Positions 42,988 to 53,885 of a stretch of DNA of 64,000 bases are shown one piece after another. Source of the stretch: Roseivirga sp. (lineage in GTDB: Bacteria > Bacteroidota > Bacteroidia > Cytophagales > Cyclobacteriaceae); NCBI GenBank assembly GCA_018402485.1, contig JAGYIY010000001.1, positions 1,210,001 to 1,274,000 on the forward strand, in the 5' to 3' direction. Every line of letters starts with the position of its first letter. Within the stretch, counting starts at the first letter, position 1. Position numbers and translations under genes: made by a program. Under the pieces are notes generated by a model that made no database searches, was not told the DNA's origin, and worked only from the letters and a program-made list of their open reading frames with translations.

Positions 42988-43107
42988 AAGCGAACGATTG
43001 AATGCGAAAGATAAAGGATGCATTCAGGTCAATTCCTGATTTTTATCAGATCTAACTCTTTTTGATCAAAAAAATGTAGGTCGAAAGACAGTACCGTCTT
43101 TCCATCC

Positions 43108-44340
43108 TTAAAACTTGACTTCCGAGGCTTTTACTTCTGCTCCCCTTTTGAACTCAACCACTGTTTGGTCTCCTGTATTGAAACTACTCAAAGCCCTCAT
43201 GTAGCTCATCATATCTACCACAGTGGAGTCACCAAGCTTAATGACGATGTCTCCTTTTTTCAGTCCTGCTTTTTGAGCAGGTTTGCCTTCGGTTACGCCA
43301 TCAATGCGCATGCCTTTGCCATCAAAAAGGTAATCTGGCACCACGCCCATGGATACTGAAAATCTTGGTGTATCTTCATTGCTGTCTTGTGTTTTCGTAA
43401 AAGTAATGGCTTCGTCTTCGTCTAATTGATCAATGACCCTTTCAATCAATCGAATGACTTTTACCATGCCTTCATAATTGATCTTATCGGCATCGTCAGA
43501 AGGTCTGTGATAATCGTCATGCTGGCCGGTAAAAAAATGTAATACAGGCATATCTTGCAGATAAAACGAAGTATGATCCGATGGCCCAACGCCTGAAGCT
43601 GAGGTTACTAACTTGAGTGAGTCTGTATTGGCCTCTGCCAAAGTTTCTTCCCACACAGGGCTTGTACCCACACCATTGACAGCTAAGGTGTTTTCTTCAT
43701 TCAACCGACCCACCATATCCATGTTGATCATAAAATTGATTGAGTCAAGAATCAAGGAAGTGTTTTTGGTGTAGTAGTTCGAACCCCATAGACCATTTTC
43801 TTCTCCGCTGAAAGCAACAAAAACGAAATTGTAGGCAGACTTTTTCACCTGTAAAATTTTTGCGAGCTGGAGCAAAGCCGCTGTGCCGCTGGCATTGTCA
43901 TCCGCTCCATTATGAATCGCAGGCTCACCACGGTACAAAGACCCCTCTCCGCCATAGCCTAAGTGGTCATAGTGTGCTCCTATGACAATGTATTTAGACG
44001 ATTTATTATCAATCATACCAATCACATTCCTGCCTGTAATACCTTCTCCGTCTGCTTTTGGCTCTGCTTGTTCATGAGGACTGGCGGGCTTATTTACGGT
44101 AAAAATTTGGTAGTAGTCTTCTGTTCCTCCAGGCTTTAAACCAATTTCTTTGAACCTCTCTGCCAAGTAATTGGCAGCCTTCTCCTCACCCTCGGTTCCT
44201 ATGGCGCGACCTTCTAATGCATCATCCGCCAAATAGGCGATATCAAGTTTTAATTCCTCAAGTATTTCTCGATCGGTCGTAAAATCAGTACAACTCCAAA
44301 TCAATAGGAGAAAGAAAATAGAAGTGGTAATATTCTTCAT
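43108..44340 (-). CDS. M28-family zinc aminopeptidase with PDZ domain, lipoprotein
   Basis: 410 aa. Lipoprotein signal ending SC (Cys17). The peptidase core has the zinc ligands of M28: His in HYDHLGYGGEG, Asp in GADDNASG, Glu-Glu in SGEENGLWG, Asp in DMVGR and His in DHTSFYLQ. The C-terminal 90 residues form a PDZ domain (RIDGVTEGKPAQKAGLKKGDIVIKLGD). It faces the periplasm or outer surface. A perfect -7 element TATCTTTG lies at 44365-44358 on this strand, 18 bp before the ATG, overlapping the divergent promoter of the next gene. Confidence 0.93.
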   Translation of the reverse strand: MKNITTSIFFLLLIWSCTDFTTDREILEELKLDIAYLADDALEGRAIGTEGEEKAANYLAERFKEIGLKPGGTEDYYQIFTVNKPASPHEQAEPKADGEGITGRNVIGMIDNKSSKYIVIGAHYDHLGYGGEGSLYRGEPAIHNGADDNASGTAALLQLAKILQVKKSAYNFVFVAFSGEENGLWGSNYYTKNTSLILDSINFMINMDMVGRLNEENTLAVNGVGTSPVWEETLAEANTDSLKLVTSASGVGPSDHTSFYLQDMPVLHFFTGQHDDYHRPSDDADKINYEGMVKVIRLIERVIDQLDEDEAITFTKTQDSNEDTPRFSVSMGVVPDYLFDGKGMRIDGVTEGKPAQKAGLKKGDIVIKLGDSTVVDMMSYMRALSSFNTGDQTVVEFKRGAEVKASEVKF

Positions 44341-44350
44341 GGCAATGGTG

Positions 44351-44381
44351 TTTACCTCAAAGATAATAATTCATATCTTCG
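44351..44381 (+). promoter_or_regulatory. Divergent promoters between the M28 peptidase and propeller lipoprotein genes
   Basis: Plus strand: TTTA (44351-44354), 19 bp, TATCTTCG (44374-44381), each one base off consensus. Minus strand: TATCTTTG (44365-44358), an exact -7 lying inside the plus spacer. The two start sites would compete for RNA polymerase. Confidence 0.5.
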
Positions 44382-44408
44382 CACCTTCAATTAATTCCAC
44401 TCATTCAA

Positions 44409-45512
44409 ATGCGCTATTTATTTTTTTTCATACCTCTGATCATTATGTCTTGTCAAGGGGGAGGTTCAGGTAAAGAAAGTGTAGAAGCTAGATCGAAATC
44501 CGACTCCTTGCTTTTACATCCCGAAGAAATGAAATACCTCAAAAACATCAAGCAGATTACCTTTGGCGGAAATAATGCAGAGGCTTACTGGAGCTTTGAT
44601 GATCAATATTTGGTTTTTCAATCGGACTATGCCGGGTGGGGCTCGTCTTGTGATCAGATTTTCTACACAGATTGGCAGAATGATGATTTAAGTGAAACCG
44701 CACCAAAACGCTTGAGCACGGGCATGGGACGCACCACCTGTTCTTATTTTTTACCGGGTAATCAAAGCATTGTTTATGGGTCAACTCATTTGGGCGGCGA
44801 AGACTGTCCACCAGTTCCTGAACGCAGAACAGATGGTAAGTATGTTTGGCCAATCTATGAGAGTTTTGACATTTTTACGGCTGATATGGAGGGGAATTTA
44901 CTACAGCAATTGACTGATACCCCCGGATATGATGCCGAGGCGACCGTTTCTCCGAAAGGAGATCGAATGGTTTTTACTTCCATGCGGACCGGTGATTTAG
45001 AACTCTTCACCATGAATATGGATGGTTCAAATGTCCGCCAAATCACCGATGAGTTGGGTTACGATGGTGGGGCATTCTTTTCCCCCGATGGCAGCAAGCT
45101 TATTTTCCGTTCTTCCCGACCTAAAACAGAAAAGGAAATTGATGAATACAAAGCCTTATTAAAGGAAGGCTTGGTTAAACCTACAGACATGGAGCTGTAC
45201 ATTTGTAATGCTGATGGGTCAGATTTAAGAAAACTGACAGATTTAGGGCAGGCGAATTGGGCTCCTTTCTTTCACCCTTCCGGAGAAAAAATCATTTTTG
45301 CCAGTAACCATCAAACGGAAAGAGGTTTCCCATTTAATTTATACATGATCAATATTGATGGCACAGGGTTGACAAGGATTACAAGGGACGAAACTTTTGA
45401 TGCCTTTCCTGTTTTTTCGAACGATGGGAAGTATTTGGTCTTCTCATCCAATCGAAACAATGGTGGCACACGAGATACCAATATTTTCGTGGCCGAATGG
45501 ATTGGAGGGTAG
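44409..45512 (+). CDS. Beta-propeller lipoprotein (TolB/PD40-like)
   Basis: 367 aa. Lipoprotein signal with Cys15 (IPLIIMSC). The rest is a six-bladed-type TolB propeller: repeats of the form AEATVSPKGDRMVFTSMRTGDLELFTMNMDG, FFSPDGSKLIFRSSRP, and PFFHPSGEKIIFASNH, spaced by about 40-45 residues. Divergent from the peptidase gene and possibly functionally linked to it (peptidase plus periplasmic propeller), but that is inference. Confidence 0.88.
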   Translation: MRYLFFFIPLIIMSCQGGGSGKESVEARSKSDSLLLHPEEMKYLKNIKQITFGGNNAEAYWSFDDQYLVFQSDYAGWGSSCDQIFYTDWQNDDLSETAPKRLSTGMGRTTCSYFLPGNQSIVYGSTHLGGEDCPPVPERRTDGKYVWPIYESFDIFTADMEGNLLQQLTDTPGYDAEATVSPKGDRMVFTSMRTGDLELFTMNMDGSNVRQITDELGYDGGAFFSPDGSKLIFRSSRPKTEKEIDEYKALLKEGLVKPTDMELYICNADGSDLRKLTDLGQANWAPFFHPSGEKIIFASNHQTERGFPFNLYMINIDGTGLTRITRDETFDAFPVFSNDGKYLVFSSNRNNGGTRDTNIFVAEWIGG

Positions 45513-45544
45513 CGCAAACTTTTCGTTAATAATTTCTACGTATT

Positions 45545-45574
45545 CTTGTTAAAAAGATTTTTTTGCTACTTTTA
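45545..45574 (+). promoter_or_regulatory. Candidate promoter of the arginine leader/operon
   Basis: CTTG at 45545-45548 and TACTTTTA at 45567-45574 (7 of 8 to TAnnTTTG), spacer 18 bp. Transcription would begin almost at the ATG of the leader ORF (45581), giving a leader of about 215 nt before the first structural gene. Confidence 0.5.
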
Positions 45575-45580
45575 CGTTTC

Positions 45581-45667
45581 ATGAAGGGCATACTTTCTAC
45601 ATACTACCCAACGGAAATACTTCAAGTAAGTGTTTTAAGGCCAGATTTCAGGCAAAATAGGCGCTAG
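45581..45667 (+). CDS. Putative arginine-rich leader peptide of the arginine operon
   Basis: 28 codons, ATG to TAG, ending LRPDFRQNRR-stop: four Arg in the last nine codons (AGG at codons 20, 24 and 27, CGC at 28). It begins 7 bp after a promoter-like element. The Arg codons overlap RNA that can pair in two exclusive ways (45660-45663 with 45669-45672, or 45650-45655/45657-45662 with 45687-45694). Stalling of a ribosome at these codons when charged tRNA-Arg is low could choose between them. No clear intrinsic terminator follows, so the output could be on translation or Rho. Inference from layout; a chance ORF is not excluded. Confidence 0.55.
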   Translation: MKGILSTYYPTEILQVSVLRPDFRQNRR

Positions 45668-45694
45668 TCGCCACACATGTTTTCTGTTGCCTAT
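45650..45694 (+). promoter_or_regulatory. Alternative RNA hairpins overlapping the leader peptide end
   Basis: Hairpin A: GGCG (45660-45663) with CGCC (45669-45672). Alternative B: AGGCAA (45650-45655) with TTGCCT (45687-45692), or ATAGGC (45657-45662) with GCCTAT (45689-45694). A and the second form of B share bases 45660-45662 and cannot coexist. The leader stop codon (45665-45667) sits in the loop of A. Confidence 0.45.
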
Positions 45695-45796
45695 GCGGTA
45701 ACACTTCCCTCACTATTCTTCATATTTATTCATTTAGGTCATTAAAAGGCTAGTTTTTATAAGTTTTTTGAACGGTTGTTAACGCAGCATAATAGA

Positions 45797-46477
45797 ATGA
45801 AATCAAAATTTATCATAGGTCCTGCAGTAGCTGCGGACTTGCCATACGCACAAGTTATTGTCGATGAAATTGCCAACTCTGCCAAAGTAAGAGGTACGGG
45901 GATTGCCAAAAGAAGCCCAGAGTACATTGCTCGTAAAATTGAAGAGGGCAAAGCGATTATGGCTAAAACAGCCTCCGGTGAATGGGCAGGTTTTTGTTAC
46001 ATAGAAGCTTGGGGTCATGGACAATTTGTCGCCAATTCAGGTCTCATTGTCGCTCCCAAATTCCGAGAACATGGGCTCGCCAGGCAAATCAAGGAGGCCA
46101 CCTTCGAGCTATCGCGTATAAAATTTCCAGATGCCAAGATTTTTGGACTGACCACGGGAGCAGCTGTCATGAAAATCAATTCACATTTAGGGTATAAGCC
46201 TGTGATTTACCAGGAATTGACAACTGATGAAGCTTTCTGGCAAGGGTGCCAAAGTTGTGTAAACTATGAAATATTGCAGGCAAAAAACCGTCAGGGTTGC
46301 ATTTGTACAGCCATGCTTTACAACCCTGCTTGGGAACAAAATCAAAAACCGAAACGCAAAAAATGGAAGAAACGCGAATTAGGTAAAGACCTGTCATTGT
46401 TTGAGAGATGGGTTAATTTTAAGAAAAACACCTTGTTGAAGGGCAAGACCAAAAAAGTACAGAGTAATGAAAAATAA
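45797..46477 (+). CDS. GNAT acetyltransferase, likely N-acylglutamate synthase
   Basis: 226 aa GNAT-fold enzyme. Strand-loop features fit GNAT: GHGQFVANSGLIVAPKFREHGLARQIKEA holds the acetyl-CoA loop (REHGLA) and the helix after it. As the first gene of the arginine operon and overlapping argG by 11 bp, it is best read as the enzyme that makes the N-acyl-glutamate starting compound. The operon otherwise lacks ArgA or ArgJ. The start is the ATG at 45797; an in-frame TTG at 45776 is less likely. The acyl donor (acetyl or succinyl) is not fixed by sequence. Confidence 0.82.
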   Translation: MKSKFIIGPAVAADLPYAQVIVDEIANSAKVRGTGIAKRSPEYIARKIEEGKAIMAKTASGEWAGFCYIEAWGHGQFVANSGLIVAPKFREHGLARQIKEATFELSRIKFPDAKIFGLTTGAAVMKINSHLGYKPVIYQELTTDEAFWQGCQSCVNYEILQAKNRQGCICTAMLYNPAWEQNQKPKRKKWKKRELGKDLSLFERWVNFKKNTLLKGKTKKVQSNEK

Positions 46478-47660
46478 AGAAATATTACTGGCATTCAGTG
46501 GAGGCCTTGACACTTCCTTTTGTGTGAAATACTTGATGGACAAAGGCTATCACGTTCATGCTGCCTTGGTAAATACCGGAGGTTTCACTCCTCAAGAATT
46601 GAAAGAGGTGGAAGAAAGAGCAATTTTTCTAGGTGTAAAATCATTTATTATTTTGGAGGAAACGGAACGTTATTATCAAGATGTTGTACGCTTTCTCATC
46701 TATGGTAATGTGCTGAAAAACGGTTCTTACCCCCTCTCGGTGAGCGCTGAAAGGGTCAGCCAGGCCGTGGCGCTGGCTGAATATGCCAAAAAACTAAAGG
46801 TTCAAGCCATTGCTCATGGCAGTACTGGAGCCGGCAATGATCAAGTAAGATTCGATATGATTTTCCAGACTTTTTTACCCGGAGTAGAGATTTTGACACC
46901 TGTGCGAGATTTTAAGCTAAGTCGTGAAGAGGAAATAGAATTGTTACGAAGCAAAGGAGTCAATTGGGACTTTACCCAATCAGCCTATTCCATCAACAAG
47001 GGACTCTGGGGTACTTCCATTGGAGGAAAGGAAACCCTGCAATCTTTGGGGAATATCCCTGAGGAGGCATGGCCAACTCAAGTTACTAAGACCCAAGCGG
47101 AAAATTTGACTTTGCATTTTGAAAAAGGGGAGCTCAAAGGGCTCAATGAAAAACGATTTAAACATCCCCATAAAGCGATTCAAGCCTTGAGTGAGCTAGC
47201 CGCACCTTATGGTATCGGTCGAGATGTTCACGTGGGCGATACGATCATTGGCATGAAGGGAAGGGTGGCTTTTGAGGCGGCAGCAGCACTTTTGACCATC
47301 AAAGGGCACCACGCCATTGAGAAACATGTGCTGAGTAAATGGCAGTTGTATTGGAAAGATCAAATTGCTCAATTTTATGGAAACTGGTTGCATGAAGGGC
47401 AATACCTCGACCCTGTGATGCGAGATTTAGAAGCCATGATGGAAAGTGCGCAGACCTATGTTTCGGGAACCGCTCACTTTACTTTGCACCCGTACCGCTT
47501 TGAACTCAATGGCATTACCTCCGAGCATGATTTAATGCATACTCAATTTGGCACATATGGCGAAATGAATAAGGCATGGAGTGGGGCTGATGTTCGAGGA
47601 TTTGCCAAAATTTTTGGCAATCAAAATGCGATGTTCCACCAAATCAATGAAAAATCATGA
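46467..47660 (+). CDS. argG: Argininosuccinate synthase
   Basis: Joins citrulline and aspartate with ATP to argininosuccinate (cytoplasm). The P-loop-like LAFSGGLDTSF (about 8-18) and the substrate-binding block AIAHGSTGAGNDQVRFD (about 113-129) are intact. 397 aa, normal. Starts inside the acetyltransferase gene (11-bp overlap) and its stop overlaps argC (ATGA). In this pathway the substrate is citrulline released by the ArgE-type deacylase. Confidence 0.97.
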   Translation: MKNKEILLAFSGGLDTSFCVKYLMDKGYHVHAALVNTGGFTPQELKEVEERAIFLGVKSFIILEETERYYQDVVRFLIYGNVLKNGSYPLSVSAERVSQAVALAEYAKKLKVQAIAHGSTGAGNDQVRFDMIFQTFLPGVEILTPVRDFKLSREEEIELLRSKGVNWDFTQSAYSINKGLWGTSIGGKETLQSLGNIPEEAWPTQVTKTQAENLTLHFEKGELKGLNEKRFKHPHKAIQALSELAAPYGIGRDVHVGDTIIGMKGRVAFEAAAALLTIKGHHAIEKHVLSKWQLYWKDQIAQFYGNWLHEGQYLDPVMRDLEAMMESAQTYVSGTAHFTLHPYRFELNGITSEHDLMHTQFGTYGEMNKAWSGADVRGFAKIFGNQNAMFHQINEKS

Positions 47661-48610
47661 GTTCAGTAGCTATTGTTGGAGGAGCAGGATATACAGGGGG
47701 TGAGCTGATTCGCTTGCTGCTCAATCATCCATTTGCAGAATTAACTGAAGTAGTCAGTCAAAGTCAGGCCGGAAAGCGCATTGACGAAGTGCATAAAGAT
47801 TTATGGGGGGAAACAGATTTACGCTTTTCCAACCAGTTGGAAACTGCTGTTGATGTTGTTTTCTTGTGTTTGGGTCATGGGAAATCATTGGGGTATTTGA
47901 CTCAACATGAGTTGCCAGGTACAACCAAAATCATTGACCTCAGTCAAGATCATCGCGCCAGCGAAGACTTTGTTTATGGTTTACCAGAGCTACATAAATC
48001 TGCCATAGCAAAAGCAGGCTATGTAGCTAATCCGGGTTGTTTTGCTACAGCTTTGACACTAGCCTTACTGCCATTAGCCCATAACGGAGCTCTGGGCGAG
48101 GTGCATGCTTCGGGGATTACCGGATCTACGGGCGCGGGAATGAGCCCTTCGGAGACCACACATTTCAGTTGGCGGTCTGGAAACATTTCTACCTATAAAC
48201 CATTTTCCCATCAACACATGGCAGAGGTGAAGAGGGCTTTGCATGTACATCAGCCTTGGCACGATAAACCCGTAAATTTTATACCCTATCGAGGGAATTT
48301 CCCCCGAGGGATTTTAATGACAGCGTACCAATACAGTACTTGGCCTTTGGAGGAGGTGCAACAGGTGTACCAGGAGTACTATGCCGATCATCCGTTTACA
48401 CATGTGGTCGATGGGCCTCTAGATCTGAAACAAGTGTTGAATACCAATAAATGTTTCATTTGCTTAGAGATGCATAATGGCTACTTGATGATTCAATCAG
48501 TGATTGATAATCTATTGAAAGGAGCCTCCGGCCAAGCTGTTCAAAATATGAATTTAATGATGGGCTGGGAAGAGAAAACAGGTCTTCAATTGAAACCAAG
48601 TGCATTCTAA
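47657..48610 (+). CDS. argC: N-acyl-gamma-glutamyl-phosphate reductase
   Basis: NADPH-dependent reduction of N-acyl-glutamyl phosphate to the semialdehyde. The nucleotide-binding start IVGGAGYTGGELIRLL and the catalytic Cys in YVANPGCFATAL (about 115-126) are clear; the block ITGSTGAGMSPSETTHF is near 153. 317 aa is typical of the shorter ArgC. Overlaps argG by 4 bp and argD by one base (TAATG). Confidence 0.96.
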   Translation: MSSVAIVGGAGYTGGELIRLLLNHPFAELTEVVSQSQAGKRIDEVHKDLWGETDLRFSNQLETAVDVVFLCLGHGKSLGYLTQHELPGTTKIIDLSQDHRASEDFVYGLPELHKSAIAKAGYVANPGCFATALTLALLPLAHNGALGEVHASGITGSTGAGMSPSETTHFSWRSGNISTYKPFSHQHMAEVKRALHVHQPWHDKPVNFIPYRGNFPRGILMTAYQYSTWPLEEVQQVYQEYYADHPFTHVVDGPLDLKQVLNTNKCFICLEMHNGYLMIQSVIDNLLKGASGQAVQNMNLMMGWEEKTGLQLKPSAF

Positions 48611-49740
48611 TGGAAAAATTTGACGTTTATCCACTTTATGATATTCACCCTGTGAAAGGTTTGGGAGCTAAGCTTTGGGATGATGAAGGTCAGGAATACC
48701 TGGATCTCTATGGAGGCCATGCGGTAATTTCAATCGGTCACAGCCACCCGCATTTCATCAAACAATTGAAAAATCAATTAGATGATTTAGCCTTTTATTC
48801 AAACAGTGTACAAAATAGAAAACAAGAGGAATTGGCCCATCTATTGGGTCATGTCTCACAGGCTGAAGACTACCGAATGTTCATGTGTAGCACCGGCGCA
48901 GAGGCCATAGAAAATGCACTGAAGGTTGCCTCTTTTCAAACCGGGAGGAATAAAATTGTGGCCATGGAAAGGGCATTCCATGGTCGTACCTCAGGTGCTG
49001 TTGCCATTACCGACAACCCTAAAATTATGTCTCCTTTTAACGCTGGTCATGAAGTGGTTTTTGTGCCCTTAAACGATCACGAGGCTTTAACAGAGGCAGT
49101 GGATGATCAAACGGCTGCCGTCATTATTGAAGGACTGCAAGGTGTGGCAGGAATTTATGAACCATCGAGTGAATTCTTGCTACATGCCCAATCTTGCTGC
49201 AAGGCTAGCCGTGCCCTCTTGATTTTAGATGAGGTACAGTCGGGAGTAGGGCGAACGGGAAATTTCTTTGCTTTTCAAAAAACGCAGGTTCAACCAGACA
49301 TCATCACACTAGCCAAGGGCATTGGTAATGGCTTTCCGGTGGCCATGGTGCTTGTGGCTCCACATATTCAGGCTTGGCATGGCATGCTGGGCACCACTTT
49401 TGGTGGAAATCACTTGGCTTGCGTAGCGGCTATGTCAGTACTTGAAATCATAGAAAAAGAGCAATTGATGAAGAATGCTCAAGAGATGGGGCAGTTTTTA
49501 AAAGAGGCTTTGCAACAGCTGACAGAAGTTGAGGAAGTGCGTGGAACTGGCTTGATGTTGGGGGTTCAAATGGCTTTTCCGGTAGCTGATTTACGCAAGC
49601 GAATGCTTATGGATCACCATGTTTTTTTAGGGTCCTCTGCCGAGCCACATACCTTTCGTCTTTTACCGCCTCTAAACATCACAAGAGAAGATCTCGATTA
49701 CTTTTTACTGCAACTTAAACTAAGCTTAGAGAAATCATGA
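48610..49740 (+). CDS. argD: N-acylornithine aminotransferase
   Basis: PLP enzyme of class III that transfers an amino group from glutamate to the N-acyl-semialdehyde. PLP Lys lies in ITLAKGIGNGFPVA (about residue 236) with the upstream Asp in LLILDEVQSGVGRTG. 376 aa. It has the substrate-binding opening YGGHAVISIGHSHP. Whether the acyl group is acetyl or succinyl is not decided by sequence alone. Overlaps argF' by 4 bp. Confidence 0.95.
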   Translation: MEKFDVYPLYDIHPVKGLGAKLWDDEGQEYLDLYGGHAVISIGHSHPHFIKQLKNQLDDLAFYSNSVQNRKQEELAHLLGHVSQAEDYRMFMCSTGAEAIENALKVASFQTGRNKIVAMERAFHGRTSGAVAITDNPKIMSPFNAGHEVVFVPLNDHEALTEAVDDQTAAVIIEGLQGVAGIYEPSSEFLLHAQSCCKASRALLILDEVQSGVGRTGNFFAFQKTQVQPDIITLAKGIGNGFPVAMVLVAPHIQAWHGMLGTTFGGNHLACVAAMSVLEIIEKEQLMKNAQEMGQFLKEALQQLTEVEEVRGTGLMLGVQMAFPVADLRKRMLMDHHVFLGSSAEPHTFRLLPPLNITREDLDYFLLQLKLSLEKS

Positions 49741-50696
49741 AGCATTTTACTTCAGTACACGATGTACCCGATGTGGAAACCCTTATCCATGATGCTTTGC
49801 ACTGGAAGGCGAATGGACGTTCTCCAAAACCTTGGACGAAACATAAAAAAGTGGGCTTGATTTTTTTCAACCCGAGTTTACGTACCCGTTTGAGTGCACA
49901 AATTGCTTTACAAAACCTTGGTGCCGAACCCATAGTCCTAAATATAGGAAGAGAGGGTTGGGCGCTTGAGAACAAGGAAGGAGTCATAATGGATGGAGAT
50001 AAAGCGGAACACATCAAAGAGGCTGCCGGAGTGATGGGTGCTTATTTTGATGTGCTAGGGATTCGAAGCTTCCCCGGTTTAGAAGACAAGGAAGAAGATG
50101 CGCGAGACGATATTTTACAGGCCTTTATCAAATACGCCCATATTCCTGTCGTCAGTTTGGAAAGTACCACTTTGCATCCTTTGCAGAGTTTAGCAGATGT
50201 TATGACCATACGAGAACATTGGCAGCAGGAGCGTAAACCAAAGATTGTCTTAAGTTGGGCTCCGCATGTTAAGCCTTTGCCTCAGGCGGTGCCTAATTCC
50301 TTTGTTGAGTGGGTGAAAGCCATAGATGCTGACCTTACACTGACTTGCCCTACGGGTTATGAGTTGGCGCCCCCCCACATGGATGGCCTACAGGTAAGCC
50401 ATAATCAACAAGAAGCACTTGAAGGAGCAGATTTTGTTTATGTGAAAAATTGGTCTTCTTTTCAGAATTATGGAGAGGTTTTGTGTAAAGACCCAACTTG
50501 GACTTTCAGTCAAAAACACTGGGAAATAACAAATAAAGCCAAGGTGATGCATTGCCTGCCTGTTCGAAGAGGGCTAGTAATTGCGGATGAGGTACTCGAT
50601 GGTAACCATGCCCTCCATTTACAGCAAGCAGCAAATCGTATTCCTGCTGCTCAAGCTGTTTTTTCCGCTTGTTTAAAAACTTCGAATCATGAGTAA
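49737..50696 (+). CDS. argF': N-succinyl/N-acetylornithine carbamoyltransferase
   Basis: Carbamoylates N-acyl-ornithine to N-acyl-citrulline. The carbamoyl-phosphate loop is FFNPSLRTRLSAQ (about 43-55). The specificity position (Pro90 in Bacteroides SOTCase, Glu92 in Xanthomonas AOTCase, as I recall the published comparison) falls at residue 90, here Ala in DGDKAEH. Ala, like Pro, has no Glu side chain to exclude a succinyl group, so the succinyl form is favoured. 319 aa. The gene carries neither the classic OTCase STRTR loop nor an ornithine SMG motif. Confidence 0.9.
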   Translation: MKHFTSVHDVPDVETLIHDALHWKANGRSPKPWTKHKKVGLIFFNPSLRTRLSAQIALQNLGAEPIVLNIGREGWALENKEGVIMDGDKAEHIKEAAGVMGAYFDVLGIRSFPGLEDKEEDARDDILQAFIKYAHIPVVSLESTTLHPLQSLADVMTIREHWQQERKPKIVLSWAPHVKPLPQAVPNSFVEWVKAIDADLTLTCPTGYELAPPHMDGLQVSHNQQEALEGADFVYVKNWSSFQNYGEVLCKDPTWTFSQKHWEITNKAKVMHCLPVRRGLVIADEVLDGNHALHLQQAANRIPAAQAVFSACLKTSNHE

Positions 50697-51492
50697 ACTA
50701 CCACCACTGACCCTTGTGAAAATTGGCGGTCATGTCATAGAACATGAGGATGCTTTGAATGTGTTTTTGAGGCAATTTGCTCAATTGGAAGGGGATAAAA
50801 TCTTGGTGCATGGTGGTGGTCAATCAGCATCTGTCATGGCACATAGGCTAGGTATTGTAGAGAAAAAGGAGCAGGGGCGCAGAATTACCGATAAGGAAAC
50901 ATTAGAGGTGGTCACCATGGTGTATGGTGGGCTGGTGAACAAAAAGTTGGTAGCAATTCTCCAGTCTTTGGGTATGAATGCTTTAGGTTTGACAGGTGCT
51001 GATGGAAACGCTATTTCAGCAAAGAAAAGACCCAATTACCCGATAGATTATGGTTTTGTGGGGGATGTATTGGCCGAAGATGTAAATCTGAATTTCTTTG
51101 AACAACTGTTACGCATGGGCATTACGCCAGTCATAGCACCCCTTACACATGATAAAAAAGGGCAATTATTGAATACAAATGCCGATACACTAGCTGCCCA
51201 AGTTGCCATTGCTCTACAGGAATACAGGCCTGTTCGACTTTTGTATTGTTTTGAGCAAAATGGGGTATGGTCGAATGCACAATCTCAAGCTGTGCTAGTG
51301 GAATTATCGCCCCATTTAAAAGATCAGTTGTATCAGGAAGGAGTTATCCAAGATGGTATGGTGCCGAAACTGGCCAATGCATTTTGTGCGCTGGAAAATG
51401 GTGTTCAAGAAATTCGTATTTTACATTACGCCGACCTATTGGTTTGGCAGAAGGGAAAAGAACCAGGAACAAAAATAGTATCATCAAAATGA
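50689..51492 (+). CDS. argB: N-acylglutamate kinase
   Basis: Amino-acid kinase that phosphorylates N-acyl-glutamate. KIGGHVIE (about 11-18) carries the catalytic Lys; the substrate Gly-rich loop VHGGGQSASVMAHRLG (about 40-55) and NTNADTLAAQVAIAL near 163 match ArgB. 267 aa, the short non-feedback-extended type. Overlaps argF' by 8 bp and argE by 4 bp. Confidence 0.95.
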   Translation: MSKLPPLTLVKIGGHVIEHEDALNVFLRQFAQLEGDKILVHGGGQSASVMAHRLGIVEKKEQGRRITDKETLEVVTMVYGGLVNKKLVAILQSLGMNALGLTGADGNAISAKKRPNYPIDYGFVGDVLAEDVNLNFFEQLLRMGITPVIAPLTHDKKGQLLNTNADTLAAQVAIALQEYRPVRLLYCFEQNGVWSNAQSQAVLVELSPHLKDQLYQEGVIQDGMVPKLANAFCALENGVQEIRILHYADLLVWQKGKEPGTKIVSSK

Positions 51493-52547
51493 GCCACGAA
51501 GAAGCCATAAAATTATTACAAAGAATGATTGCTATTCCTTCCATCAGCCAAACAGAGGAAGGTACAGCCGAAGTTTTAGCCCAGTTTCTTCAAACCAAGG
51601 ATGTGGAAATCCATCGCCTAAAGCATAATGTATGGGCGAGAAATAAGTTTTACGATGCAGCCAAACCTACCATACTACTCAATTCACACCACGATACCGT
51701 AAAACCGAATAAAGGTTACACCAAAGGTCCTTTTCAACCGGAGATTATTGGCCAAAAACTTTTTGGCCTTGGAAGTAATGATGCAGGAGGATGTCTTGTG
51801 GCACTAATAGGTGCTTTTTTGCATTTCTATGACCAGGAAAATTTATCACATAACTTAGTCTTGGTGGCTTCAGCAGAAGAAGAGATTTCTGGCAAAAATG
51901 GTATTAGCGCAGTTTTGCCGCTTTTAGGAAAAATAGATTGTGGTATTGTTGGAGAACCTACCCAAATGCAAATGGCCATTGCCGAAAAAGGCTTGATGGT
52001 CTTGGACATCACGGTACGCGGTGAGGCCGGACATGCAGCGAGAGAAGAAGGGCGAAATGCGATCTATGAAGCCTTGCAGGATATCGCATGGTTTCAAAAC
52101 GCTACTTATGAAAGAGCATCAAGTTGGTTAGGGCCAATTAAAATGACCGTTACACAAATCGAGGCAGGTCGGCAACACAATATTGTTCCTGAGCTGTGTC
52201 GGTTCGTAGTAGATGTTCGATCCACAGATGTTTGTAGCCATAAAGAATTGCTCCATTGGATCAAGTCACAGGTCAGAGGAGAGGTAAAGGCGCGTTCCAC
52301 ACGGCTGAATCCATCTTTTATCAACCCTCAACACCCGTTGGTAAAAGCAGGAGATGCCATGGGTTTGGAAAAATATGGGTCTCCAACTTTGTCCGATCAG
52401 GCATTGATGCCTTTTCCAACCCTCAAAATGGGGCCAGGGGATTCTGCACGATCGCATATGGCCGATGAATTTATTTTTCTTTCAGAAATAAAGGAAGGTA
52501 TAGATGGCTACATCAAAATATTAGATAAAGTGATGATTAAGAAATAG
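51489..52547 (+). CDS. argE: N-acylcitrulline/N-acylornithine deacylase (M20 family)
   Basis: Zinc peptidase of family M20, 352 aa. Metal ligands: His in LLNSHHDTV (about 67-72), Asp in LGSNDAGG (about 95-98), the Glu pair in SAEEEISGKNG and the later EPTQMQMAIAEKG. Its proposed job is to remove the acyl group from N-acyl-citrulline to give citrulline for ArgG. The start is the ATG at 51489 (in ATGA with argB stop); a much longer in-frame ORF from 51267 lies inside argB and is an artefact. argH follows after 6 bp. Confidence 0.93.
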   Translation: MSHEEAIKLLQRMIAIPSISQTEEGTAEVLAQFLQTKDVEIHRLKHNVWARNKFYDAAKPTILLNSHHDTVKPNKGYTKGPFQPEIIGQKLFGLGSNDAGGCLVALIGAFLHFYDQENLSHNLVLVASAEEEISGKNGISAVLPLLGKIDCGIVGEPTQMQMAIAEKGLMVLDITVRGEAGHAAREEGRNAIYEALQDIAWFQNATYERASSWLGPIKMTVTQIEAGRQHNIVPELCRFVVDVRSTDVCSHKELLHWIKSQVRGEVKARSTRLNPSFINPQHPLVKAGDAMGLEKYGSPTLSDQALMPFPTLKMGPGDSARSHMADEFIFLSEIKEGIDGYIKILDKVMIKK

Positions 52548-52553
52548 AGACAC

Positions 52554-53885
52554 ATGAAACTTTGGGAGAAAAATAGCAGCAGTGCCGAACGTGTAAATGC
52601 ATTTACAGTTGGCAGGGATCTTACCTTTGACATTCATTTAGCACCTTATGATGTGCAAGGTACTTTGGCACATACCGCCATGTTGGCTCATATTGGTTTA
52701 ATGGAGGAAGGTGAAAAAAATGAAGTCCACAAGGCTTTGAAAAGAATTTATGCCCAAATGCTCTCCGGCGAATTTAAGATGAAAGAAGATGTGGAAGACA
52801 TTCACTCCCAAATAGAAATTATGCTTACCGAAGAGTTGGGGGATGTAGGAAAGAAAATCCATAGTGGCCGTTCACGCAACGACCAAGTTTTAGTGGATTT
52901 AAAGCTTTTTATGCGTTCTGAAATTTTTGAAATAGCCGTTTTGACAAAGGAACTTTTTCAAAAACTACAACTGCTTTCAGAAAAATACCGATCAGTATTA
53001 TTACCCGGTTATACGCACATGCAAGTGGCTATGCCTTCCTCTTTTGGCCTATGGTTTGGGGCCTACGCAGAAAGTTTGGTAGATGATTTAATCATACTCA
53101 AAGCCGCTCATGATATGATTAATCAAAACCCTTTGGGCTCAGGCGCTGGCTTTGGTTCTTCTTTCCCCCTCGATCGTAATTTAACAACTCAATTATTGGG
53201 TTTTGAAAGTATGAATTACAATGTTGTTTATGCCATGATGGGGCGTGGAAAAGCAGAAAAATCCATGTCTTTCGGCATGGCTTCCATTGCTGCAACTTTA
53301 TCAAAAATGGCCATGGACATTTGTTTGTATATGGGGCAAGAATACCGTTTTGTTAGCTTTCCAGAGGAGTTGACCACAGGTTCGAGCATTATGCCTCATA
53401 AAAAAAACCCCGATGTTTTCGAATTGATACGAGGCAAGTGTAACCGGATGCAAGCTCTGCCCACAGACATCACCATGATGACACTGAACTTACCTACGGG
53501 GTACCACAGGGAAATGCAATTATTAAAAGAGCTTCTTTTTCCAGCCATTGAAGATTTAAAGGATTGTTTATCGATGACTATCTATATGTTGGACCATATT
53601 CAAGTGAATGACAAGGCGGTTGAGCAAGACAAATATAATGACTTGTTCACTGTAGAAGCCGTGAATCGCCTAGTGCTCAAAGGCATGCCATTTCGCGAAG
53701 CTTATCAAAAGGTAGGTCGAGATGTTGCTGCGGGTAGTTTTCAGCCTGATCGAAATCTAAACCATGTCCATGCAGGAAGTCTTGGAGATTTGCAAAACGA
53801 AGCCATTGCCTCCAATATGGAAGCTCAATGGCAAAAGTTTGACTTTGACAGTTGGAAGGACGCCCTAGTGCGCTTACTAGCATAG
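52554..53885 (+). CDS. argH: Argininosuccinate lyase
   Basis: Splits argininosuccinate to arginine and fumarate. The fumarase-superfamily signature GSSIMPHKKNPDVFE (about 279-293, catalytic Ser loop) and the substrate block VEDIHSQIEIML with IHSGRSRNDQV are intact. 443 aa, normal. Last gene of the arginine unit. No obvious hairpin terminator follows in the 171-bp gap, only a T-rich stretch at 53886-53900. Confidence 0.96.
   Translation: MKLWEKNSSSAERVNAFTVGRDLTFDIHLAPYDVQGTLAHTAMLAHIGLMEEGEKNEVHKALKRIYAQMLSGEFKMKEDVEDIHSQIEIMLTEELGDVGKKIHSGRSRNDQVLVDLKLFMRSEIFEIAVLTKELFQKLQLLSEKYRSVLLPGYTHMQVAMPSSFGLWFGAYAESLVDDLIILKAAHDMINQNPLGSGAGFGSSFPLDRNLTTQLLGFESMNYNVVYAMMGRGKAEKSMSFGMASIAATLSKMAMDICLYMGQEYRFVSFPEELTTGSSIMPHKKNPDVFELIRGKCNRMQALPTDITMMTLNLPTGYHREMQLLKELLFPAIEDLKDCLSMTIYMLDHIQVNDKAVEQDKYNDLFTVEAVNRLVLKGMPFREAYQKVGRDVAAGSFQPDRNLNHVHAGSLGDLQNEAIASNMEAQWQKFDFDSWKDALVRLLA

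Follow-up and report, generated by a model that had tools for sequence, protein, structure and literature searches.

A conserved arginine-codon leader ORF upstream of the arginine biosynthesis operon of Roseivirga, probably serving attenuation in place of ArgR

The window analysed in this study is a 64,000-nucleotide stretch of a Roseivirga contig, and all coordinates refer to it. It carries an arginine operon in the order GNAT-argG-argC-argD-argF'-argB-argE-argH, in which argF' encodes N-acetylornithine carbamoyltransferase and the argE-like gene a deacylase. The operon is preceded by a short ORF ending in arginine codons and by two hairpins, HP1 and HP2. The features are as follows.

45546 to 45574, forward strand: promoter-like element TTG ... 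TACTTTTA, seen as sequence; CTTTG stands at a similar place in congeners
45581 to 45667, forward strand: arginine leader ORF, ending FRQNRR-stop; same ATG and same end in 18/18 congeners
45660 to 45672, forward strand: HP1, GGCG-CTAGT-CGCC, formed over the last Arg codons, with the stop codon in its loop
45685 to 45703, forward strand: HP2, TGTTGCC-TATGC-GGTAACA, with two-sided changes in 6 of 7 pairs and 97.6% of cells paired
45704 to 45796, forward strand: stretch from HP2 to the first gene, conserved in neither sequence nor length
45797 to 46477, forward strand: GNAT-like N-acetyltransferase, first operon gene; weak NCBIfam match (E 0.00055), far below the cut-off
46467 to 53885, forward strand: argG, argC, argD, N-acetylornithine carbamoyltransferase, argB, argE-like deacylase and argH, from profile matches

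The matches of argC, the N-acetylornithine carbamoyltransferase, argB and argH lay above the curated cut-offs, and those of argG, argD and argE were best matches below them. The protein of the first gene had no match in Pfam; its position makes it a candidate acetylglutamate synthase. A weak Rfam match to STnc410 inside the operon (48719-48823, E 0.051) scored 24.1 bits against a cut-off of 50 and was taken as chance. Between HP2 and the GNAT gene, inserts resembling inverted repeats, GTCATTNNGA...TCNNAATGAC, were seen by eye in L002, L004, L005, L007 and L010, which explains part of the spacing differences among congeners.

The leader ORF comprises 28 codons, from the ATG at 45581 to the TAG at 45665-45667, and encodes the peptide MKGILSTYYPTEILQVSVLRPDFRQNRR. 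Its Arg codons are AGG at 45638, 45650 and 45659 and CGC at 45662. A first-pass annotation of this DNA had described a 28-codon ORF with four Arg among its last nine codons, three of them AGG, about 130 bp ahead of the first arginine gene; the sequence bears this out, with 129 nt between the leader stop and the ATG at 45797. The promoter-like element named in the same annotation is also present as sequence just ahead of the leader, with TTG at 45546-45548 and TACTTTTA at 45567-45574. It ends 6 nt before the leader ATG, a closeness that implies a nearly leaderless start of the ORF. We take the element to be of the Bacteroidetes promoter type; a sigma-70 promoter scan found no site on the leader strand. 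The folding energy of the window leader alone was ordinary (z 0.09), so the evidence for the leader is comparative.

Two further features were seen within and just after the ORF. The motif ACATA lies at 45599-45603, 18 nt inside the leader, and is kept in nearly all congeners even though the reading frame around it differs between congener subgroups, which suggests a constraint at the RNA level; ACATAGC occurs at the corresponding place in other Cyclobacteriaceae. A second ORF of 22 codons (45677-45745, MFSVAYAVTLPSLFFIFIHLGH) overlaps HP2, and was rejected as a conserved element, having no counterpart in the congener sequences read.

We examined 19 genomes of the window genus, whose named members are Roseivirga. 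The first operon gene was found in 18 of them, and all 18 upstream regions, hereafter the congeners, align over the leader. An ORF of 27-32 codons occupied the leader place in 18/18, starting from the same ATG and ending in AGG-CGC-TAG, AGG-CGC-TAA or AGG-CGG-TAG, with AGG as codon -2 in every case. The leader frame was open in 18/18 congeners, frame +1 in 0/18 and frame +2 in 2/18. Identical leader peptides were common to named Roseivirga species and other genomes of the genus. AGG accounted for 48 of the 73 Arg codons in the 18 leaders, compared with 20 of 136 in 11 window ORFs, and the leaders of three congeners held only two Arg codons, both terminal. We then defined a leader-ORF test, which requires an ORF that starts with ATG, is 15-60 codons long, has two or more Arg among its last ten codons and stops within a set range of distances upstream of the gene. 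All 18 congeners passed, compared with 12.4% of dinucleotide shuffles and 2/18 on the reverse strand. The nineteenth genome, G015, is without the GNAT gene and also without HP2, through either pathway loss or an assembly gap.

The same test was applied to the 24 best-matching loci of other family genera and to 80 named loci (the best 80 of 139 relatives); the congener, family and named sets overlap in species, and 8 of the 80 named loci are congeners. The results showed that 23/24 loci of the other family genera passed (shuffles 8.2%, reverse strand 3/24), as did 73/80 named loci (shuffles 10.7%, reverse strand 9/80), although a few of these 73, such as L114 and L124, resemble chance. Among the misses, an Arg-rich ORF starting with TTG is present in L095, L101, L107 and L109, the locus of L112 is cut by the contig end, and L116 and L135 showed no convincing Arg-rich ORF upstream of the gene.

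At the level of the phylum, the first operon gene was found in 83 of 198 drawn genomes. Outside the family, 46 of the 76 genomes with the gene passed the test; 8/76 passed on the reverse strand, so some of the 46 forward passes are chance. The 30 failures, which include most of genus g91, cluster by family (9/18 in f7 and 5/8 in f23), and in family f22 19/20 genomes passed, with peptides such as MQKSLAHRIDRRSVRRIPRRR. Ahead of the GNAT gene in the f7 genomes G386, G339, G335 and G323, the hairpin GCCC-GTAA-GGGT carries the leader stop in its loop, and in G386, G339, G309 and G294 a further hairpin with AGGTGAGTCC in its loop was seen by eye after the stop hairpin. These leaders, read partly by eye, follow the same plan with other sequences. 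The first-pass annotation had proposed looking in relatives for the same ORF with Arg codons at its stop, and this is what was found, in 18/18 congeners and widely in the phylum.

Both hairpins were then scored on the congener alignment. RNAalifold predicted only HP2, with pair probabilities of at least 0.99; HP1 was added by hand. HP1 had 91.7% of its cells paired and no two-sided changes. Taken together, the two hairpins had 95.5% of cells paired and 22 two-sided cells, and 0/500 shuffles reached any of five measures. HP2 begins 20 nt past the first base of the leader stop. In a set of 22 sequences from other Cyclobacteriaceae, which leaves out L105 and L088, HP1 takes the form AGGG...CCCU at the same place (98.9% paired), and HP2 still covaries, with 30 two-sided cells (0/500 shuffles). 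Three of the five measures stood at 0/500 shuffles in this set, and two coarser ones lay within the shuffles (50/500 and 162/500). In some of these bacteria the leader stop lies beyond HP1, and HP1 is nevertheless kept. The loop of HP2 is UAYGY in most Cyclobacteriaceae rows compared. Pairings of the HP1 loop with the HP2 loop, of HP2 with ACATA near the ORF start, and of HP2 with the start of the GNAT gene were considered by eye, unscored, and rejected, each failing in several relatives.

A covariance model combining HP1 and HP2 was built on the 18 congener sequences, and 196 family genomes were searched with it under strict filters. As a lower bound, at least 22 of the 196 genomes were matched, 16 of them outside the genus. 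Fourteen of these 16 matches lie 20-206 nt upstream of a GNAT match on the same strand; the GNAT place is not listed for G109 and G195, which therefore fall outside this distance count. The end of an Arg-rich frame is contained in 15/16, nine with an ATG start and six with TTG or GTG only, whereas the leader of L029 has a single Arg; leaders with only TTG or GTG starts mean that the ATG-only test undercounts.

To place the leader beside the usual regulator of this pathway, we searched for the ArgR domain (PF02863). It was found in 0/196 family genomes, including the window's own (84.6% complete), and in 8/14 control genomes, including Bacteroides ihuae. In the phylum it was present in 72 of the 198 genomes, and these overlap with the 83 genomes carrying the first operon gene only in G241, whose match is doubtful, being partial, scoring exactly 25 bits and containing a stop codon; G241 passes the leader test. 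This mutual exclusion follows lineages, so that few evolutionary events lie behind it. ArgR is likewise absent from the 30 phylum genomes that have the gene but no ATG leader, indicating that the leader is not the phylum's only answer.

Conservation and the open frame together point to a short, presumably translated ORF, rich in codons for the end product and kept ahead of a biosynthetic operon, which is one of the marks of ribosome-mediated leader-peptide attenuators. The core claim of the first-pass annotation, an arginine-codon leader before the arginine operon, is thereby strongly supported. From these comparisons of sequence, we consider it likely, with a probability of about 0.85, that the operon is controlled by arginine-responsive, ribosome-mediated leader attenuation in place of ArgR. 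Leader-peptide attenuators are known for the trp, his, leu and ilv operons, with E. coli trpL as an example. The present leader shares with them a short ORF of end-product codons before the operon and a hairpin that spans control codons and stop, and differs in serving arginine, in having HP2 with its conserved loop, and in having neither a terminator nor a conserved antiterminator in the genus. ArgR, a DNA-binding protein, would perform the same task by other means, namely less arginine synthesis when arginine is plentiful.

In the proposed mechanism, transcription would start close to the leader ATG, and a ribosome would translate the 28 codons, having to read AGG, AGG, AGG and CGC shortly ahead of the stop. 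A shortage of Arg-tRNA would hold the ribosome at the Arg codons, where it would keep HP1 open and cover the mRNA almost as far as HP2. With ample Arg-tRNA, the ribosome would terminate and leave, HP1 would form across the stop codon, and either transcription or the leader RNA would be aborted before the operon. The operon would thus be expressed under arginine shortage, a task that falls to ArgR in other bacteria. We infer both the sensing through tRNA charging and the sign of the response. Since ribosomes stalled at the last Arg codons and ribosomes at the stop would both cover HP1, this hairpin by itself does not account for the difference between the two states.

Among the alternatives, the one that survives best is nascent-chain arrest, in which the leader peptide itself senses free arginine or ornithine, as TnaC or SpeFL does. 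Arg stands at or beside the stop in the leaders of several families, and endings are partly conserved within families, such as FRNSFRA and PIPFLVRR. A related logic is described in excerpts of PMC6386406 for the Salmonella speF leader, where orf34/SpeFL has consecutive Arg codons and pauses without arginine, with Rho and an RNA structure downstream. That leader shares the ORF with consecutive Arg codons, but controls ornithine decarboxylase and not arginine synthesis; the likeness is one of description. The residues upstream of the terminal Arg codons, however, vary widely between and within genera, and it is Arg itself that recurs over the phylum, so we regard nascent-chain arrest as unlikely.

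A second alternative is classical attenuation, as the first-pass annotation had envisaged it, with the Arg-codon strand pairing either within 45660-45672 or with 45687-45694 as a mutually exclusive switch. Both pairings are possible in the window, where 45687-45694 (TTGCCTAT) can pair with 45650-45655 or with 45657-45662, and the AGG:CCU core of the alternative pairing is kept in nearly all congeners, although a core that is almost invariant is uninformative either way. The hairpin at 45660-45672 is the part of this proposal that stood, being conserved as HP1. Its exclusive partner did not: among the congeners, the helix 45657-45662/45689-45694 had 74.1% of its pairs formed against 74.2% in shuffles, and the helix 45650-45655/45687-45692 had 56.5% against 56.3%. 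The latter exceeded shuffles in one of five measures, with 8 two-sided cells against 3.6 (4/500), and this excess was not counted because sliding this helix by 3 columns gave a higher value (13). The strand 45687-45694 belongs instead to the covarying HP2 (45685-45703), which the annotation had not named. With neither alternative helix above shuffles, this strand used by HP2, and no terminator in the window, the exclusive switch is very unlikely.

A third alternative holds that the region is a structured RNA acting without translation, for instance an arginine-binding RNA or a protein-binding HP2, with the ORF incidental. It would fit HP2 and its conserved UAYGY loop, which are specific to the arginine operon. 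In a search with a model of HP2 only, the arg locus was matched in 18 of the 19 genus genomes, the exception being G015, and HP2 was found only at the arginine operon in the genus genomes searched. HP2 as a general module of other operons was rejected, since 13 non-arg matches in the 19 genomes, with E values of 0.08-1.53, were taken as chance. No Rfam family matched the leader up to E 1 (window positions 43000-49000), and the loci of 20 relatives gave 0 matches at the gathering score. Against a purely structural role, the ORF with its Arg codons is found again in families in which no HP2 of this form was seen, and the leader frame alone stays open, making this reading highly improbable. That the ORF is a chance frame without function is extremely unlikely, for although about one in ten shuffled upstream regions pass the loose ORF test, the ORF keeps its place and frame in 18/18 congeners and recurs over the phylum.

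For ribosome-mediated attenuation, the preferred reading, the output step was sought among terminators. A scan of 45400-46000 found 0 intrinsic terminators, confirming the earlier remark that none lies before 45797. Terminator-like sites were found in 4/18 congeners (shuffles 1.6%), three of them 84-108 nt past the leader stop and one being HP1 with a U-rich tail. They occurred in 3/36 loci of other Cyclobacteriaceae (shuffles 1.8%), in 12/36 more distant named loci (3.2%) and in 1/48 other phylum genomes (1.7%). A mutually exclusive antiterminator and intrinsic terminator are thus absent in the window genus, but the corresponding sequence is present in two distant relatives, L079 and L099. 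In both, a 19-codon Arg leader (RSLRRR and RSPRRQ) precedes the GNAT gene, and a strong intrinsic terminator lies 31-35 nt past the first base of the leader stop. The 5' arm of this terminator can pair instead with the last codons of the leader, as a possible antiterminator (9 bp at -16.6 kcal/mol and 7 bp at -11.1 kcal/mol, for isolated strands). This classical layout in L079 and L099 is the best independent sign that the task of the leader is attenuation. In ten other distant loci (L097, L106, L110, L121, L123, L125, L128, L129, L131 and L134) the leader ORF itself contains a terminator-like hairpin with a run of U, which in several cases closely follows an Arg codon and precedes the terminal Arg codons. 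These loci appear to represent another attenuator architecture, seen in Chitinophagales and others.

For the window genus, elimination leaves Rho or polymerase pausing. Either is favoured because the unconserved stretch from HP2 to the gene offers little on which a switch at the ribosome binding site of the gene could act. Rho-dependent leader attenuators of the tnaC, mgtA and speF type have an unstructured Rho loading site with C over G behind the leader. Here, C minus G was 7 in the 50 nt after HP2, compared with -4 to 9 in the best 50-nt windows of 18 other intergenic stretches; since this is not above the window's other intergenic stretches, composition does not support Rho. Rho-dependent termination or the release of paused RNA polymerase stands as a guess for the output in this genus, one to which we give somewhat less than even odds, with RNA stability as a further candidate. 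In E. coli tnaC, a ribosome held at the leader end gates the access of Rho with no intrinsic terminator, and free tryptophan induces via the peptide. What would be shared with tnaC is the ribosome at the leader end as a gate without an intrinsic terminator; the Rho site here is hypothetical. Rho antitermination of the tnaC type is named in excerpts of PMC1262725, which also state that Actinobacteria have no conserved RNA structure before arginine operons.

Related leaders have been described elsewhere. According to excerpts of PMC13009471, the rbfL leader ORF of Staphylococcus aureus senses arginine limitation via a rare AGG codon, with stalling that blocks translation start of a biofilm regulator, so that low arginine turns the gene down. 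Excerpts of PMC9723704 report strong indications that amino-acid operons of Flavobacterium psychrophilum are preceded by leader-peptide attenuators, and those of PMC4997734 mention a leader peptide for Pseudomonas aeruginosa carA. Excerpts of PMC4833913, PMC7366714, PMC2965389 and PMC8632094 describe no arginine-operon leader in Bacteroidota. Among the open-access papers listed for this subject, no description of such a leader was found, although the supplement of PMC9723704 could name one.

A wider reading, which we put just short of an even chance, is that much of the phylum outside the lineages with ArgR governs arginine synthesis by an arginine leader peptide and not by a repressor. In Cyclobacteriaceae it would act without terminator or antiterminator, via HP1 and an HP2 with a UAYGY loop about 20 nt past the stop, as a ribosome-gated switch of undescribed kind, and other branches would have rebuilt the output, with a terminator after the leader in L079 and L099 and terminator-like sites inside the ORF in Chitinophagales and others.

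Arginine synthesis is the standard example of control by a repressor, but ArgR was not seen in a large part of this phylum, and a leader that recurs across families offers an answer to how arginine is regulated in such bacteria. Arginine biosynthesis would join the pathways under leader-peptide control, in a phylum with unusual translation initiation in which little is known about attenuation. The same peptide logic with different RNA outputs by family would provide a natural series for the replacement of attenuator outputs in evolution.
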